Shown: one piece after another, positions 30,677 through 39,028 of the stretch
Layout of the letters: each line of letters starts with the position of its first letter
How positions within the stretch are numbered: the first letter of the stretch is position 1
Origin: Opitutia bacterium
GTDB taxonomy: Bacteria > Verrucomicrobiota > Verrucomicrobiia > Opitutales > Seribacteraceae
Assembly (NCBI GenBank): GCA_002686835.1
Contig: NYYP01000016.1
Span: 24,597-63,959 of the forward strand
DNA length: 39,363 bases
Direction: 5' to 3'
Translations under genes and position numbers: made by a program
The notes under the pieces: generated by a model
Seen by the model: the letters and a program-made list of their open reading frames with translations, nothing else
What the model was told of the DNA's origin: nothing
Database searches by the model: none

Positions 30677-32275
30677 ATGAAATCTGGAAAAAAAGTGGTG
30701 TTATTATTGTTGGTAATTACCTTCGTTTTGCCTCAACTAAGCATTGACGTTATTTCACTCTGGCCGAGTTTCGTTGCCCTGCTCTCGGTCTTATTTCTAA
30801 AGAAAGCTTTGCCAGGTCTTTTGATCGGGGCGGTTTCTGGAGTTATTCTAATAGCCCACGGAAATCCACTTCGGGTTCCCTCTGTATTCATTGCAGATAT
30901 TGCCACTCCTGCCCTTTCAAGCAGTTGGAATCTAAGCATTCTCACCTTTACCCTTCTGCTTGGTGGATTTTCTGCTCTTCTTGAAAAAGGGGGTGGGTTT
31001 GAAATCATTTTGAAAAATTTGCTAAGTAAAACAGATAAATTATCCAAAAAAGTTGAATGGTCAGCATTTTTACTCGGTATAATCTGCTTTTTTGATGGGC
31101 TGGCCAGTTCTCTGCTTGGAGGTCGGGCAATTCGCCCCCTTGCAGATAAAACAGGACTATCCCGAGCCAAACTAGCCTACCTGGTCGACTCCACAGGCTC
31201 GGCAATTGCCTGCGTGGCCATCATGTCGACATGGATTGCTTATCAACTTTCAATGATTAGAGAAGGATACCTTGCCGTAGAAATTGTTCATAGCGAGCCC
31301 TTCACCCTTTTTCTCTCATCGATTCCCCGCAATTTCTACTGCTGGTTCACCCTGATTTTAGTGGTTCTTACTATCCGTAAATCCCTCAATTTTGAATCGA
31401 TGGATAAGTTTGAAATTAAAATCCCTAAAAATATTACTGAAAACGAGATCACGGATGCAAGGAATCATCCAACAGATACTAGTGGACAAAACAGGGTGCT
31501 CATCCCCATTGCCACCCTGATTAGTTGCCTATTCATCGGCTTGTATTTCAATGGGGTGCAAGGAACGGCTTGGCCGGTAAATTTTTTGAAAATCAAGCAA
31601 GCATTTGGCGATGCTGAGTCAAACATCGTACTCCTTTTCAGCTCCATTGTAGCCTGTATTATTGCGTTTTTTTTAAACCGAAATTCAATTTTAATTTCTG
31701 GCTTATCCCCAAGGAAAGAATTCATCAAAGGAATTGGGCGTTTCATCACCCCTTCCCTTGTCCTCATTGCTGCATGGTTCTTGAGCGGCACTCTTCGTGA
31801 GCTTGGAGCTGCTTCTTTTCTTTCCCAAGCTTTAAGCGGATCTCTCCCCCCTGCTCTTTTTCCAGTTTCTGTCTTTCTTCTCGGTGTTTTAATTTCTTTC
31901 ACTACCGGAACATCCTGGGGCACCATGGGCGTGCTCATGCCCCTAACCATTCCCGTCTGTTTATCTTTGGCCCCCGATTCAAATACTATGATGGCGTCTG
32001 CCATCGCAGCCGTATTTAGCGGTGCCGTCTTTGGAGATCATTGTTCACCCATGAGCGACACCACCATCGTTTCAGCCGTAGCCTGCGAAATTTCTCCCTA
32101 TGATCATTTTCGAACTCAACTACCCTATGCGTTGCTTGCCGCAAGCGTAGCTGCCCTTGCTGGATTTATTCCCATGGGCCTTGGACTATCTCCATGGCTA
32201 TGCCTGATCGTGGGTACATTCATTTTACTATCAGTTCCTTGGATCAGGAATAAATTCTTTTCCATTTCCGGCTAA
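30677..32275 (+). CDS. NhaC-family Na+/H+ antiporter
   Basis: A 532-residue transporter with about 12 membrane helices. It carries the NhaC-family signature near the C-terminus, GTSWGTMGVLMPLTIPV and VFGDHCSPMSDTTIVSAVAC, and the earlier FFDGLASSLLGGRAIRPLAD and STGSAIACVAIMSTWIA. It probably exchanges Na+ for protons, fitting a marine habitat; related proteins also carry malate/lactate or other organic acids. The ATG at 30677 has a hydrophobic, basic-flanked N-terminus. The stop shares one base with the next ATG (TAATG), so the downstream MFS gene is translationally coupled. Confidence 0.9.
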   Translation: MKSGKKVVLLLLVITFVLPQLSIDVISLWPSFVALLSVLFLKKALPGLLIGAVSGVILIAHGNPLRVPSVFIADIATPALSSSWNLSILTFTLLLGGFSALLEKGGGFEIILKNLLSKTDKLSKKVEWSAFLLGIICFFDGLASSLLGGRAIRPLADKTGLSRAKLAYLVDSTGSAIACVAIMSTWIAYQLSMIREGYLAVEIVHSEPFTLFLSSIPRNFYCWFTLILVVLTIRKSLNFESMDKFEIKIPKNITENEITDARNHPTDTSGQNRVLIPIATLISCLFIGLYFNGVQGTAWPVNFLKIKQAFGDAESNIVLLFSSIVACIIAFFLNRNSILISGLSPRKEFIKGIGRFITPSLVLIAAWFLSGTLRELGAASFLSQALSGSLPPALFPVSVFLLGVLISFTTGTSWGTMGVLMPLTIPVCLSLAPDSNTMMASAIAAVFSGAVFGDHCSPMSDTTIVSAVACEISPYDHFRTQLPYALLAASVAALAGFIPMGLGLSPWLCLIVGTFILLSVPWIRNKFFSISG

Positions 32276-33618
32276 TGCAGGAAAAACTGGAAATTGCCCG
32301 CTCCAACATACGGAACTTCATTGCCTTTCGTATGTTCTTCAGTGCCCGGTTTTATTACCCCGTCTTCGCGGTCATTTATCTGGATTTCGGAATGACTCTT
32401 GAACAATTTGCCATTCTCAATTCCATCTGGGCGGCTACGATTATTTTAGCAGAAGTACCATCCGGTACCCTTTCAGATATTATTGGCAGGAAGAAAATGA
32501 TCGTGACCGCTGGCATTCTCATGGTGGTGGAAATGTTGGTCTGGGGATTTGCTCCCACCTCCAATCTCGATGTTCTTTTTTGGATCCTCGCAATTAATCG
32601 TGTGCTCAGTGGTTTAGCTGAAGCGGCGGCCAGCGGAGCAGACGAAGCCCTCGTTTACGATTCTATCGATGAAGCAGGCAAAAAAGATGAATGGGGATTA
32701 ATCCTCCAAAAAGTTACCCGTTGGCAATCCTTCGCCTTCATGATAGCCCTACTTACCGGGGGAATTTTGTACGACCCCGAAGTAATGACCCATGTATGTC
32801 AGTTTCTTGGAATAGATATTCATTTGACTCAGCAGGAAACCATGCGCTGGCCCATCTTTCTCAATCTGGTCACCGCCCTACTCACTCTTCTTGCTGCCTT
32901 ATCCCTTCGGGAGACAGGAAACTACCAGTCCAACACTGATCCAATTTCCAGCAAGACCGCATTTGCTCAAACCTGGAGAGTTGCCAAATGGATAGCCCAT
33001 ACCCCTTTTGCCCTAATTATCATTTTAGCGGCGGCCACCATCGACAGTGCCATTCGCATGTTCATTACCATGAATAGCGAATATTACCGGCAGATCTCCT
33101 TTCCCGAGGTTGCCTTTGGTATAATCGGAGCCGTCATTTCACTACAAGGCATGGTGGTTGCCCGAATTTCCCGGGAGATGACAGAACGGTTTGGACCCAA
33201 TCAAAATTTTCTAATCATTTCATTCATCACCCTGCTTGCATTTATTGGGATACGCTTTTTCGTCCCCTACTTCGGAGTACTTTTCTCCATGCTCTTATTT
33301 GTGGCCATGGGGATGACTGGCTTTTGCACGAGTTACTACCTCAATAAAACCGCAGACAAGTCGATCCGTGCCACCCTCCTTAGTTTTAAGGGATTGGCTC
33401 TCAACTTGGGCTACGGCGGTATTGGTATTCTCTATGCCCTCCTTGTGGCCTACTTACGGGAACAGCCTGAACTTTCTTCAGATGCGGGAATGCTTTTTCA
33501 GGCATCCTCCGAGTGGTTTCCACCATGGTTTTTGATTACTTTCCTGGCTGTAATTTTGTGCCAGTTGAAATGGCGTGGAAAGCTTCCTTCTGAAGGGATT
33601 TCAATAAAAGGAGCTTAA
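32275..33618 (+). CDS. MFS transporter of unknown substrate
   Basis: A 447-residue protein with about 12 hydrophobic segments. It has the MFS motif A-like element EVPSGTLSDIIGRKKMIV in the loop after helix 2, and LALNLGYGGIGILYALLV in the C-terminal half. The substrate is unknown. It starts at the last base of the NhaC stop codon and was probably selected for coupled expression, perhaps moving a compound whose uptake depends on the sodium or proton gradient. Its stop lies 12 nt from the convergent stop of the large secreted helical protein gene. Confidence 0.88.
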   Translation: MQEKLEIARSNIRNFIAFRMFFSARFYYPVFAVIYLDFGMTLEQFAILNSIWAATIILAEVPSGTLSDIIGRKKMIVTAGILMVVEMLVWGFAPTSNLDVLFWILAINRVLSGLAEAAASGADEALVYDSIDEAGKKDEWGLILQKVTRWQSFAFMIALLTGGILYDPEVMTHVCQFLGIDIHLTQQETMRWPIFLNLVTALLTLLAALSLRETGNYQSNTDPISSKTAFAQTWRVAKWIAHTPFALIIILAAATIDSAIRMFITMNSEYYRQISFPEVAFGIIGAVISLQGMVVARISREMTERFGPNQNFLIISFITLLAFIGIRFFVPYFGVLFSMLLFVAMGMTGFCTSYYLNKTADKSIRATLLSFKGLALNLGYGGIGILYALLVAYLREQPELSSDAGMLFQASSEWFPPWFLITFLAVILCQLKWRGKLPSEGISIKGA

Positions 33619-33630
33619 GTATAGCATCGA

Positions 33631-35907
33631 TTACAATTCTACATCGTCTTGCCAGAGTAATCCGGGTGCTACTTCCCCCCTTTTTTTTGCCCAAGATGAA
33701 ATAGCCTCCTCAACCTGTTGACGAACCAAAATGCTCATTTGGTGCCGTACGGCTGAACTGGATACACGAAACAGCATCTTCAGTTCAGATTCCTGGCTAT
33801 CTTGCCCGAATAGATTGAAAATTCCCGAACCTCCACTTTGGACATTTTCATCCAAGACCAAACCGAGTGGTTTTTTTAGGGCTTCTGAAATCACCTGAGC
33901 GGCTCCTTCGATGTTTTGAGGATCAAACTCGAGTGAGAATGCCCCTGCCCCATTGGGCGAACCGAACAACATCCTGCATCTACCATTCGGGGCATCACTA
34001 AAAGCAAAGACTCCATCGGCCAAGCCTAGGTAAGTCTCCAGCTCTTCAGTCACCCCTCCAGCTTTTTCCTCCGCTCCTCCCTGGGCGGTTTGCTCGGGTT
34101 TATCTTCCTCCTGTTTTGATTCGGGTTGTTCATTTTCTGTGGGAATGGCATCAGATGTACTACTCTCTTCATCCCCGCCAAGCTCATCAATTGAGGAGTC
34201 TTTATTAGATGGGGCTTGCACCACTACTTTTTGCATACCCTCGTATAATTGTCTGACAACTTTGTTAAGTTCCTCGTCCACTGATTGAAACTTGGGTTTC
34301 CATTGCTGGGAGTAATTCGTGTGTTTTTCATTCCATAATTCCTGCCATTCCAACTCCCATTTTTTTAAAATATCCGCAACCGGCAGATGATCGCTTACAT
34401 CTTTTCTCAACTGCTCGATATTTTTTTTCTCCAGATTCCCGACCAGTTCAAGCTGGGCACGCATCGACCTAATTGCAGGTTCTAGCAATGCATTTGTTTT
34501 CTGCACGGCCATTCGTCGGGTTTCCTCCAAAAGATGGGAATGGTCGACATCCATACCTAAACTCCTGGACAAATCGGTAAAATCTCCCACTCTGCTCTTG
34601 CCCTTTTTGTAATACCAAAGAATGACGGATTCTTCGGGAAAAGAATCATCCAGAAAACTTGCAAACTCTTGGGAAAACTGCTCCTCTGCAATTTGCTGCC
34701 TAACTGCATTCGATCTTTGTTTAATTGATACCCTCAGTTGATTTTTAAAGGTCTTCGCCAAGGCCCCTGCCTCGGTCATTTCACCGGAAAAATATTCACT
34801 CAACTTCTCTCCCCCATACTGTTTGGCCGCAATATTACTGGCCTTTCCAAAATACTTTTCCACTAGTAATTTAAGACTTTTCCCAGCATATAAATGCTCA
34901 GTTATATTTCGGCGAATTTCACTTTCTAATTCCCCTTCATTTGGAATCCACTCCCTCGAGGATTTTAGGTATTTCTCAAACCGCTTTGTTTCCCAATGAG
35001 CTGAAGCCCGCTCCACCAGTTTTTCGATTGCCTCAAAGGTTCCATAAACGGGTGGCTTCGCTTCCAGGTCCTCCACCGCTCCTTCTTTTAATTGCTCTAA
35101 GGAACTGGCATAGAGATCAGCGCGTGATTTAAGTTCAGCGGCATATTGGTTTCCCTCCACCTGTTTTTTGACAGTTTCAAATTGTGCTTTGTATTGCTTG
35201 GCCACTTCTCTGCGAAAATCGGCCGACATTTCCGCTACCTTTTTGCTCACCTCCTCAAACACCGGTTCTGTGTTCCTCTCCATGGTGTTTAACCACTCGT
35301 CAAGATGAACAAATTCATCGGTGGTTATGGGCTTTACCCCCTTTCCTTTATTCTCAAAAATTTTCGAAACCCGACTGTTTAATTCTGGCCAACTTGGATA
35401 AGTTTGATTTTCACGCAGTCTTTTTATCTGCTCCTCGGTCGCCAATTCCCTGGCCTTGGCATAGACCTTTCCTAAATTAATCCTGGCATACTCGCTTGCT
35501 TTTTGTGGAGCTTCCTTTGCCCAGTTTTTGACCGCCCGCTTTAACAGTTCCGCTCGTTCAATCGGCAAAGGACTTTGCTCCTTGGCCCACTCCAGGGTCT
35601 GGTTGACCGACTTCTCTAATTCTTTTAAGCGCCATTGCTCGATCCATTTCCCACCCGGCTCTTCACCACCCTTTAGAGTCTTGAATTGCTCGACCCTTTC
35701 GAGCATCTCTTTGGAAAGTAAAATGCTCAACTCTCCCGCTTGCGAATCGTTTGCATCCGCTACACTTTTTAGGTGTAATTTTACCTTTTCGGCCGCCGCC
35801 CGCAGGGTAAGCACTTTTTTTGCTCCAGCCTTAGGGTCCGACTGTGCCAGTACTCCCGAAACCACTCCAAAGAATAAAATCGAATAAAGAAGGGTGATTC
35901 TTATCAT
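33631..35907 (-). CDS. Large secreted helical (coiled-coil) protein of a three-gene channel locus
   Basis: A 758-residue protein with a signal peptide (MIRITLLYSILFFGVVSGVL, likely cut after A21). The mature part is almost entirely charged alpha helix, rich in Glu, Lys and Ala, for about 580 residues. An acidic, low-complexity linker (about 590-650, with DELGGDEESSTSDAIPTENE) and a compact C-terminal segment (YLGLADGVFAFSDA, VISEALKKPLGLVLDENV) follow. I do not recognise a family. The ATG at 35907 overlaps the preceding stop (ATGA), so it is coupled to the single-span protein. It is likely a periplasmic partner that the channel pair acts on. Confidence 0.7.
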   Translation of the reverse strand: MIRITLLYSILFFGVVSGVLAQSDPKAGAKKVLTLRAAAEKVKLHLKSVADANDSQAGELSILLSKEMLERVEQFKTLKGGEEPGGKWIEQWRLKELEKSVNQTLEWAKEQSPLPIERAELLKRAVKNWAKEAPQKASEYARINLGKVYAKARELATEEQIKRLRENQTYPSWPELNSRVSKIFENKGKGVKPITTDEFVHLDEWLNTMERNTEPVFEEVSKKVAEMSADFRREVAKQYKAQFETVKKQVEGNQYAAELKSRADLYASSLEQLKEGAVEDLEAKPPVYGTFEAIEKLVERASAHWETKRFEKYLKSSREWIPNEGELESEIRRNITEHLYAGKSLKLLVEKYFGKASNIAAKQYGGEKLSEYFSGEMTEAGALAKTFKNQLRVSIKQRSNAVRQQIAEEQFSQEFASFLDDSFPEESVILWYYKKGKSRVGDFTDLSRSLGMDVDHSHLLEETRRMAVQKTNALLEPAIRSMRAQLELVGNLEKKNIEQLRKDVSDHLPVADILKKWELEWQELWNEKHTNYSQQWKPKFQSVDEELNKVVRQLYEGMQKVVVQAPSNKDSSIDELGGDEESSTSDAIPTENEQPESKQEEDKPEQTAQGGAEEKAGGVTEELETYLGLADGVFAFSDAPNGRCRMLFGSPNGAGAFSLEFDPQNIEGAAQVISEALKKPLGLVLDENVQSGGSGIFNLFGQDSQESELKMLFRVSSSAVRHQMSILVRQQVEEAISSWAKKRGEVAPGLLWQDDVEL

Positions 35908-36692
35908 TCTTCCAGCCCCTCGCCCAATTGCCCGTATTCCTCGACAACGCTGTTAATCAGAGGGTAACCTCTTGCTTTTAATTCATCTGAGACTCGTAAC
36001 AACTGAGCAGATAACCCATTATTCGAGTCCTCCAGATTTAGCAGGGGTAACTGATCAGCACACTGGGCGACAGCTGCCCATTGCAAACCCTCCACCTGCT
36101 CTTTCCATTTCGACACCCGGTCTGCAACATACCCCAAAGCATAGGCCCTTCGCTGCTCATTGATCACAAAATCTTCCGAAACTAAATCAGGGTCATTTGG
36201 GCGGGCCTTTGCCAGCGGATCGTACAATGTGATAAACTGCAGAGCATTCTCCTCTTCTCCTGCCGGCGGTTCATAGGCTAAGGCCGCATTGTAGAGATCT
36301 TCCTGTAAATTTTTACGGTCATTCATTTCCAGTGCCTTAACGCACAAGCTGGCAAATCTTTGATCATCGGGAAATGCCCCCGCCCATTGTACTCTTTGAA
36401 AATCCGGAAATGCCCCCAGTTCTGCCTCTCTCTCCCAGTTATCCATCACCGTATCAATACGCAGGATCAATTGCTGTTTCCACATCTCCAATATGCGTGG
36501 GCCCTTGTTGCGCACCGCTTCAGTATATTCGATCACCATCAGACGCGTAATGATTGCCAAAATCAATACGAGGGGGAGTGCCACCTGTACCAAGGCATCA
36601 TTCGGACTTAACAATGGGGAACGGCCAGCTTTTGCTCCCTTTCCATCCTTTAAACCAGCAAGGAATGCCAGATCCTTTCTTCCAGTTCTCAC
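35904..36692 (-). CDS. Single-span ExbD/MotB-position membrane protein
   Basis: A 262-residue protein with one membrane helix at about 34-54 (LVQVALPLVLILAIITRLMV). Directly before it is SPNDAL with Asp32, in the place of the ion-binding Asp of ExbD/TolR/MotB (P-x-x-D at the helix start). The remaining 200 residues are presumably periplasmic and show no ExbD or OmpA/peptidoglycan-binding domain that I can recognise. A GTG start at 36692 lies in GTGA, overlapping the channel gene stop, with GAGG 4 nt ahead. The motif match is short, so the assignment to the ExbD/MotB role rests mainly on gene order. Confidence 0.65.
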   Translation of the reverse strand: MRTGRKDLAFLAGLKDGKGAKAGRSPLLSPNDALVQVALPLVLILAIITRLMVIEYTEAVRNKGPRILEMWKQQLILRIDTVMDNWEREAELGAFPDFQRVQWAGAFPDDQRFASLCVKALEMNDRKNLQEDLYNAALAYEPPAGEEENALQFITLYDPLAKARPNDPDLVSEDFVINEQRRAYALGYVADRVSKWKEQVEGLQWAAVAQCADQLPLLNLEDSNNGLSAQLLRVSDELKARGYPLINSVVEEYGQLGEGLEE

Positions 36693-37948
36693 TTTTCCTC
36701 AACTTCGCCGGTGGCTTGGTTTGACATCGCAAACTGCCCAAAGGCACTGCGTAAGGCTTTTCTCTCTGCCTTTCTTTCAGCTTGGGCATTTTCCAATAAA
36801 TGGAGAACTTCCTGCCGTTGGGATTGAGCCTCCTCGCGACCAAGGTTGAGGCTGGCATTAATTGATCGTACTTGGGATACAATTTCATCGAGTTTTTCGG
36901 TTCCTGAGCTGCCCGACTCCTTCAATGAGGCCAAGTTTTGCTCCATGGCCTGAAGGCTATCTCCCATTACTGCAAAACCTTCATTGGCTTTACGAGCCTC
37001 TTCCAGCTGATCTTTATGGATCAAATCCAGAGCCCCGAGAATCTTAAGATCCGTTTGGTTGCCCGCTTCATGAGCCTCTCCAATCCTACCCAGCAAGTTT
37101 TCCAGATTCCCAAGCCTGCCTAATTCCTGTAGGGGTGCCAGCATTGAATGCCCCTCTCGTTGAGAATCCCCCAATCCTTGAATTCTTTCGTTTGCCCGGG
37201 CCAGTTCTTGTTTTAGCCCGCCCAACTCAATCTTAATTTCGTTCAATGTGGCTGGTATATCTTGTATACTGGTACCATCCAAACGCTCACCAAAGGCCCG
37301 GCTGGCATCTCCCAAATTACGCATATCTCCGACCAACCTTTCGATTGTTTCCGTAAGGCCCAGGTCTTCTTCATCCGTTAATTCGGTGGCCCATTGATAA
37401 AGCCAGGTTAAGGGACGGGCCGCCAGAAAAGCACCGACCAACCCGAGCAAGGAACTTAGCAGTGCGGTAGCCGTGCCTCCAAGTAATTGATCAAGCGAGT
37501 CGTTTATCTTATCCACGGTTTGGGCCTTGTCTCCCAATTCCTTAACCCCGCTCACATCCAGCCCGATCAACAGACCATATAAGGTGCCTGCCAGTCCCAG
37601 CATAACCAGAAAATAGGCAAAGTTTAGAGGATATGGATCGCTCGATAATTGTCGCCTTGCCAGCTCGTCATTACCAACGCGCAAAACATTCCAGCTTTGA
37701 ACACATGGAAACAGCACAAGGAGTACAGGTACCAATGTGCTTATAGTACTTAAATCTGCTGAAAATACCTCTAACCAATGGTAAAGCTTTTTAGGTAACA
37801 GATCACTGACCAATATCAATTCCACAGAAATGGTCTGCAGGGCAATTTCAAGGTTCACCAACCATGCTACAAGCGATATTACAAGAACGCATAGCGATGA
37901 TAAAAATAACACATGAGTCTTGCTAAAATTCCTTTCCTTTTCGTTCAC
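36689..37948 (-). CDS. MotA/TolQ/ExbB/ZorA-like proton-channel protein with long helical tail
   Basis: A 419-residue protein with four membrane helices (about 12-32, 64-84, 111-130 and 155-176). Helices 3 and 4 carry GLAGTLYGLLIGL and GGTATALLSSLLGLVGAFLA, the pore-helix pattern of MotA/ExbB proteins. About 240 residues follow as a cytoplasmic helical tail with heptad-like Leu/Glu, as in the ZorA tail. In known systems such channels use the ion gradient to drive a periplasmic partner. The GTG at 37948 is preceded by AGGAAGGA at 4 nt; an upstream TTG at 37972 has no RBS. It is first in the three-gene operon. Confidence 0.72.
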   Translation of the reverse strand: MNEKERNFSKTHVLFLSSLCVLVISLVAWLVNLEIALQTISVELILVSDLLPKKLYHWLEVFSADLSTISTLVPVLLVLFPCVQSWNVLRVGNDELARRQLSSDPYPLNFAYFLVMLGLAGTLYGLLIGLDVSGVKELGDKAQTVDKINDSLDQLLGGTATALLSSLLGLVGAFLAARPLTWLYQWATELTDEEDLGLTETIERLVGDMRNLGDASRAFGERLDGTSIQDIPATLNEIKIELGGLKQELARANERIQGLGDSQREGHSMLAPLQELGRLGNLENLLGRIGEAHEAGNQTDLKILGALDLIHKDQLEEARKANEGFAVMGDSLQAMEQNLASLKESGSSGTEKLDEIVSQVRSINASLNLGREEAQSQRQEVLHLLENAQAERKAERKALRSAFGQFAMSNQATGEVEEK

Positions 37949-38191: not shown

Positions 38192-39028
38192 ATGAACCGT
38201 AGACGCTTTCTCGCCACTGCCACCAGCACACTTGCCCTTTCTCATTTTTGTTTTGCACAAGCCCCTTCCTTTCGTGGAAAGATCAAAAAGGCAGTCAAAT
38301 TTGGCACCGGCCCGGACGAGGAGCAGATGAAAAAGCTCAAGGATCTTGGGTTCGACGGAATTGAAGGTTCCGCACCGGGACTGAAAGCCGAAGCAATGAA
38401 GAAGGCCTGTGCTAAGCACAATCTACCGATGCACGGCGTGGTATACAGCAAGCACTGGCATACACGACTATCCGATGCGAACCCACAAGTTCGTGAAAAA
38501 AGCAGAGAGGGTCTTGCTCAGGCCATTCGCGAATCGCATGCAGTCGGGGGGACATCTGTCCTGCTTGTTCCCGGCAAGGTAACCGGGGCAAATGAGAACC
38601 ATCAGCATGTCTGGGATCGTTCGATCGAGCAGATCCGCCAGGTTACTCCACTCGCCCAAGAGCTAAAGATTCATGTATTGATCGAGACCGTATGGAACGG
38701 TTTTTGTTACAAACCCGAGCAGTTTCGCGACTACATCGATGCAATCGACAGCCCATGGGTACAGGCATATTACGATATTGGAAACATGCAGAAGTTTGCC
38801 CCCAGTCACGAGTGGCTCAGGATACTTGGCAAACGTACCGTAAAATTGGACATTAAGGACTGGGGATCAAAGAACGGCTTCTGCCCCCTCGGCCGGGGAG
38901 ATGTCGACTGGAAGAAAGTCCGCCACGAACTCGAAAATATCGAGTTTACCGGTTGGGCGACGCGAGAAGGAAGCGACGGCGGTATAGATAAAACTGCCAA
39001 GTTAATGAACGAACTGCTCGCCCTCTAA
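38192..39028 (+). CDS. Tat-exported sugar phosphate isomerase/epimerase-like TIM-barrel protein
   Basis: A 278-residue protein. The N-terminus MNRRRFLATATSTLALSHF is a twin-arginine signal with A-Q-A cleavage region. The mature part is a xylose-isomerase-like TIM barrel: LKDLGFDGIEGSAPGL, HNLPMHGVVYSKHW, VHVLIETVW-type LKIHVLIETVWNGF (metal Glu), AYYDIGNM (Asp), KLDIKDWG and GRGDVDW. Such exported members are frequent in Verrucomicrobia and Planctomycetes and are linked to sugar or inositol use; the substrate is unknown. The ATG at 38192 lacks an RBS. The C-terminus (WATREGSDGGI) departs from the common W-A-T-x-E pattern. Confidence 0.87.
   Translation: MNRRRFLATATSTLALSHFCFAQAPSFRGKIKKAVKFGTGPDEEQMKKLKDLGFDGIEGSAPGLKAEAMKKACAKHNLPMHGVVYSKHWHTRLSDANPQVREKSREGLAQAIRESHAVGGTSVLLVPGKVTGANENHQHVWDRSIEQIRQVTPLAQELKIHVLIETVWNGFCYKPEQFRDYIDAIDSPWVQAYYDIGNMQKFAPSHEWLRILGKRTVKLDIKDWGSKNGFCPLGRGDVDWKKVRHELENIEFTGWATREGSDGGIDKTAKLMNELLAL

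Follow-up and report, generated by a model that had tools for sequence, protein, structure and literature searches.

An overlapping cassette of three minus-strand genes, here called A, B and C, probably encodes a new force- or signal-transmitting machine of the cell envelope. A-B-C is an evolutionary unit and is neither Zorya nor Ton/Tol. It lies in the window, which is the whole stretch of 39,363 nucleotides from an Opitutia bacterium that was analysed, and shows the following features:

36689-37948, minus strand: gene A, GTG start, 419 aa, four-span channel subunit of the MotA/ExbB superfamily (ZorA-like) with a cytoplasmic tail
37754-37756, minus strand: codon of A Asp65, at the start (periplasmic end) of TM2, motif DxSTxST; Asp in 42/42 homologues
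37466-37585, minus strand: A residues 122-161, from Thr122 of TM3 (GT motif) to Thr161 of TM4, by alignment to ExbB profiles; both Thr in 42/42
36692-37411, minus strand: A residues 180-419, cytoplasmic helical/coiled-coil tail, 240 residues past Pro179 of TM4
36689-36692, minus strand: GTGA stop-start overlap of A and B, read in the sequence
35904-36692, minus strand: gene B, GTG start, 262 aa, single-span protein
36597-36599, minus strand: codon of B Asp32; Asp in 22/42 homologues, conserved in clade 1 only
36585-36587, minus strand: codon of B Gln36, invariant in 42/42, in register with the Asp essential to ExbD (hhalign, permutation controls)
35904-35907, minus strand: ATGA stop-start overlap of B and C, read in the sequence
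33631-35907, minus strand: gene C, ATG start, 758-aa periplasmic protein, based on the open reading frame and co-occurrence with A and B
34216-35835, minus strand: C residues 25-564, helical body and conserved core; AF2 pLDDT mostly 80-95
34057-34215, minus strand: C residues 565-617, acidic disordered linker; AF2 pLDDT below 50 at residues 564-618
33634-34056, minus strand: C residues 618-758, small beta-beta-beta-alpha-beta-alpha-beta domain; AF2 pLDDT about 36-80

The coordinates, strands and lengths of the three genes, and the two 4-base overlaps, match those reported in an earlier sequence-only reading. The frames of A, B and C show 45-80% identity within the genus and about 16-52% in distant families, with the order unchanged, and since all three are conserved in this way A-B-C is far beyond chance. 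Both neighbours, named by eye from the sequence, are on the opposite strand: an MFS transporter gene on the C side (32275-33618, plus strand) and a gene encoding a sugar-phosphate isomerase-like TIM barrel on the A side (38192-39028, plus strand). An antiporter-like membrane protein gene, NhaC-type by eye (30677-32275, plus strand), overlaps the MFS gene end to start; these two genes point convergently at C and both are retained in most genomes of the window's genus.

The same order and strand are found in 41 of 46 loci, a count that omits L127, and these belong to about ten family-level groups of the Verrucomicrobiota in the broad sense; the homologues do occur together across this phylum. 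Five loci are exceptions: G340 contains two of them, with A-B on one contig and C on another, C is probably split from A-B in G627 as well, both pieces sit at contig edges in G358, and in G588 C was found and B was not. The C match in G485 (L127) is weak, has neither A nor B, and was disregarded. Among 177 genomes of the order, full-length A is present only in the window's genus, where 8/8 sampled genomes contain the cassette, in most of them at a fixed place. In a sample of 388 genomes of the phylum, the B profile matches nine and the C profile 11; all nine are within the 11, and the two genomes matched by C alone carry a strongly diverged A-B-C. Relatives of C are found in 33/240 genomes of the Kiritimatiellia-containing class (the class of G257) and in 7/78 genomes of family f41. 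Of the 41 loci, 32 show the B/C stop-start overlap in the form ATGA or GTGA, a pattern that suggests coupled translation. No neighbour of A-B-C is generally conserved, flanking genes being common to close relatives only. In a FastTree phylogeny of concatenated A-B-C, rooted at midpoint, the window's genus is nested in Kiritimatiellia-type sequences, beside f47/f50, with support of 0.96-1.0. This placement makes horizontal acquisition likely, and the genus probably received the cassette from a Kiritimatiellia-like donor.

In three close f58 genomes (L120, L125 and the near-identical L126) A is preceded, at a distance of 73 bases and in the same orientation, by a gene encoding a GspE/PilB-type ATPase, and pilus-type genes are found within a few kb of the cassette in L046 and L049. 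An assignment of the cassette to type II secretion or type IV pili was rejected because such neighbours are not general and the lineages concerned are rich in genes of this type. Downstream of C, three f61 genomes (L113, L114 and L118) show genes encoding a secreted protein of about 550 aa, a sigma-factor-like and an anti-sigma-like protein, and one clade-2 genome shows an alpha/beta-hydrolase lipoprotein-like gene overlapping the end of C (L063, 9118-11028, plus strand). In a sister genus (L007, L008, L009 and L010) there is another MotA/ExbB-like locus, distinct from the cassette and made up of two genes (in L007, at 850-1821 and downstream): one encodes a channel-like protein of about 324 aa, and the next a 349-aa single-span protein with FFAFQDIITAVIGILVLI, in which an Asp is retained in the helix. 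A gene encoding a GYF-like protein lies upstream of this locus.

Gene A encodes a protein with four hydrophobic spans and, counted past TM4, the tail of about 240 residues already described in the sequence-only reading; among homologues the tail ranges from 103 to 259 residues. The A protein of the window matches ZorA2 of PADLOC (E=2.2e-6), and the genus profile matches the solved ZorA chains (8qyy) among PDB profiles (E=4.9e-4). Against Pfam MotA_ExbB the window protein scores 9.7 bits, below the gathering cut-off of 22.9, and two A proteins of clade 2, the clade to which the window does not belong, score above it (L062, 26.0 bits; L115, 25.5 bits); the A profiles of clades 1 and 2 join at 2.9e-24. 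On this profile evidence A belongs to the MotA/ExbB superfamily, with the Pfam cut-off reached by the family and not by the window protein alone. Its earlier description as MotA/ExbB-like stands on sequence evidence, and ZorA is its nearest known match. A second ZorA-like match in L016 (17230-18636) is false and corresponds to a cyclic-nucleotide-binding-like coiled-coil protein. The residues invariant in 42 A homologues are N32, D65, T71, G118-L119, G121-T122, G125, L155, T161-A162, S165, L167 and P179, and Asp65 is the sole invariant acidic residue across the membrane regions of the cassette. In ExbB/TolQ, the motifs GLxGTxxG and TAxxS (TM2/TM3) carry conserved pore threonines; in the alignment to ExbB profiles, T122 and T161 fall in these motifs, so that A shows the pore threonines of TM3 and TM4 in all 42 homologues.

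Gene B encodes a single-span protein which, by charge, is oriented N-in/C-out, with an all-helical periplasmic part of about 200 aa. Its AF2 model (10 sequences, pLDDT 66.7) shows helices essentially throughout. No family was matched in Pfam, NCBIfam or PADLOC, a Foldseek search of the model against PDB gave nothing at E<=0.001, and neither Pfam/NCBIfam nor the helical model shows a recognisable peptidoglycan-binding, OmpA/Pal-type or ExbD-type periplasmic domain. Two clades of B are distinguished: clade 1, which includes the window, reads SPNDxLVQ at the helix start, and clade 2 shows an acidic pair 3-4 residues further upstream, with G, A or S replacing Asp32, as in the remaining 20/42 homologues. 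The transmembrane profile of B was aligned with ExbD of the same lineage, using order-shuffled profiles as controls. The combined B profile scores 29.6 (permutation maximum 26.0, 0/60 as good) and the clade-2 profile alone scores 31.1 (permutation maximum 22.7, 0/100), and the clade-1 profile alone is not significant (26/60 permutations as good). Since clade 1 alone lacks signal, the ExbD register of the window's B rests on the alignment between clades 1 and 2 (1.8e-6). In this register Gln36 of the single TM helix falls on the Asp that is essential in ExbD. The sequence-only reading was right in placing Asp32 at the start of the helix, but its role as the ion-carrying acid does not hold for the family. 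Because Gln36 and not Asp32 is aligned with the ExbD Asp, and Asp32 is limited to one clade, Asp32 is doubtful as an ion carrier, and might be one in clade 1.

Gene C encodes a protein with a Sec-type signal peptide at the N-terminus (...GVLA|QSDP, by eye). In the AF2 model (11 sequences, pLDDT 76.5, pTM 0.48) it is nearly all helix, in agreement with the secreted helical protein first described, a description that missed the beta-alpha domain formed by residues 618-755. C is thus modelled as a soluble helical body followed by a small, variable alpha/beta tail domain. The family-invariant residues, R153, P171, E219, R403, E462 and Q485, are all within the helical body. C matched no family in Pfam, NCBIfam or PADLOC, and a Foldseek search of its model against PDB gave nothing at E<=0.001; a kinship to RNase H-like domains was rejected, with only E~1 and a low TM-score. 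Most C proteins of family f58 (L116, L119-L123, L125 and L126) stop about 56 residues into the alpha/beta domain, whose second half is missing. The domain shows the same strand and helix order as the periplasmic domain of ExbD/TolR; this identity is not claimed, because P in the profile comparison is 0.52 with the clade-1 sequences against 0.02 with those of clade 2, and because of the half-domain missing from most f58 members.

The host genome contains, besides the cassette, four other ExbB/TolQ genes, five ExbD genes and one MotAB pair. They are arranged as a TolQR/ExbBD-type pair, a cluster of two ExbB, two ExbD and a TonB-like gene, a cluster of one ExbB and two ExbD, and the MotAB pair. 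Since the host already has these sets, A-B-C is an additional system.

We give a little better than even credence to A-B-C being related to the 5:2 motors in a non-canonical form, in which A-B acts on the soluble periplasmic C as third core subunit and which is probably ion-driven. By homology, A and B would assemble in the inner membrane as a member of the MotA/ExbB-MotB/ExbD superfamily, with probably about five copies of A surrounding two of B. The moving part would act on C through the helical periplasmic domain of B, and C might serve as load, adaptor or shaft. The long cytoplasmic tail of A would be bundled like that of ZorA and may have a sensing or anchoring role. The most likely task would be cell-envelope work by a self-contained cassette. 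Since Asp32 is not family-wide and Gln36 takes the position of the ExbD Asp, we infer the ion drive rather than observe it; ion flow would probably not use the usual single-span Asp, and the candidates for the coupling acid are Asp65 of A or the clade-specific acids just upstream of the B helix. It is possible, and is put forward tentatively, that A-B-C represents a motor family new to the MotA/ExbB superfamily, with coupling through Asp65 in TM2 of A and the separate soluble C as its output.

The main rival to the ion-driven reading is a non-conducting sensor or scaffold, which would keep the motor-like architecture without ion flow and use C and B to report the state of the periplasm to the cytoplasmic tail of A. 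With the canonical Asp replaced by Gln, ion conduction by A-B may be absent, and the invariance of this Gln, together with acids of B that are clade-specific and upstream of it, fits such a sensor. We consider it unlikely, since the pore threonines of TM3 and TM4, Asp65 and the Ser/Thr motif of TM2 are invariant or nearly so, as if a polar path were kept, and since GldLM (type IX secretion, gliding motor) is proton-driven with its essential acid, GldL E49, in the channel subunit (PMC8986121).

Among known proteins ZorA matches A best, long tail included, which would suit a Zorya-like anti-phage module with a ZorAB-type sensor, in which C would be an effector or partner not yet recognised. Such a module is improbable: ZorC, ZorD and ZorE are not recognised among the neighbours listed, PADLOC is silent for B and C, B does not show the Pal-like domain found in ZorB, C is a secreted protein and the Zorya effectors known so far are cytoplasmic in their action, and the cassette is present throughout the sampled genus, mostly at a fixed place. 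Little likelihood is given also to an energiser of Ton/Tol type specific to the lineage, in which C would replace TonB or TolA as force transducer. The strict pairing of a periplasmic C with a motor-like pair would be expected of it, and in some genomes of the window's genus a TonB-dependent receptor-like gene lies upstream; however, across families no receptor is conserved near the cassette, the host already carries ExbB/ExbD sets, a TonB-like gene and a TolQR-type pair, and, apart from its signal peptide, C has nothing to anchor it in a membrane, and neither a TonB C-terminal domain nor a TolA domain is detected in it. In line with the sequence-only reading, neither the neighbours of the cassette nor the PADLOC matches include a partner known from Zorya, Ton, Tol or Pal, and A-B-C fits no named system in the libraries searched, B and C having no family match and both Zorya and Ton/Tol failing on the features tested.

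The known members of the superfamily (flagellar stators, Ton, Tol, gliding and Zorya) are few, and all are central to the conversion of ion gradients into force in bacteria. If one more self-contained family had an obligate periplasmic partner and carried Gln where the Asp is supposed to be essential, the need for this Asp in ion-driven motion could be tested directly, and three protein families without annotation would gain a function. No description of the A-B-C family was found in the open-access literature, a scope outside which fall most subscription papers and all preprints.

ExbBD relies on an Asp in the single-span subunit. Likewise, ZorAB uses D24 of ZorB (PMC11890865) and MotAB the single-span Asp of MotB (PMC9389320). 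The non-flagellar relatives of MotA/B, or generic ion transporters (GIT), resemble the cassette in their varied extra domains, and the three-gene family is not described in the searched passages of the survey that covers them (MotAB survey, mBio 2025, PMC12505986). ZorA-ZorB (PDB 8qyy and 8qyh; PMC11890865) shares with A-B the four-span channel subunit with GT/TA pore motifs and a long C-terminal cytoplasmic tail, and the single-span partner gene directly downstream. Unlike ZorB, B shows no OmpA/Pal-type peptidoglycan-binding domain and has Gln at the Asp position; unlike Zorya, the cassette has a secreted third gene, C, and no ZorC/D or ZorE partner is recognised among the neighbours listed or by PADLOC for B or C. 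ExbB-ExbD and TolQ-TolR share the GLxGTxxG and TAxxS motifs with A, and the TM of B is aligned with that of ExbD. They differ in the periplasmic part of B, which is of about 200 residues, helical and without an ExbD domain, in the Gln replacing the essential Asp, in the long tail of A, and in TonB, TolA or Pal, none of which is in the conserved neighbourhood of A-B-C, the TonB-like gene and ExbBD of the host being elsewhere in the genome. GldL-GldM (PMC8986121) is also a motor-like pair with a large periplasmic output and an essential acid in the channel subunit. However, no GldK/N or T9SS genes are seen near the cassette, and GldL has two spans with E49 in TMH2, whereas Asp65 of A is in TM2 of four, so the positions are not equivalent; in GldM the long shaft belongs to the protein itself, and in the cassette a separate soluble protein, C, supplies the large part.
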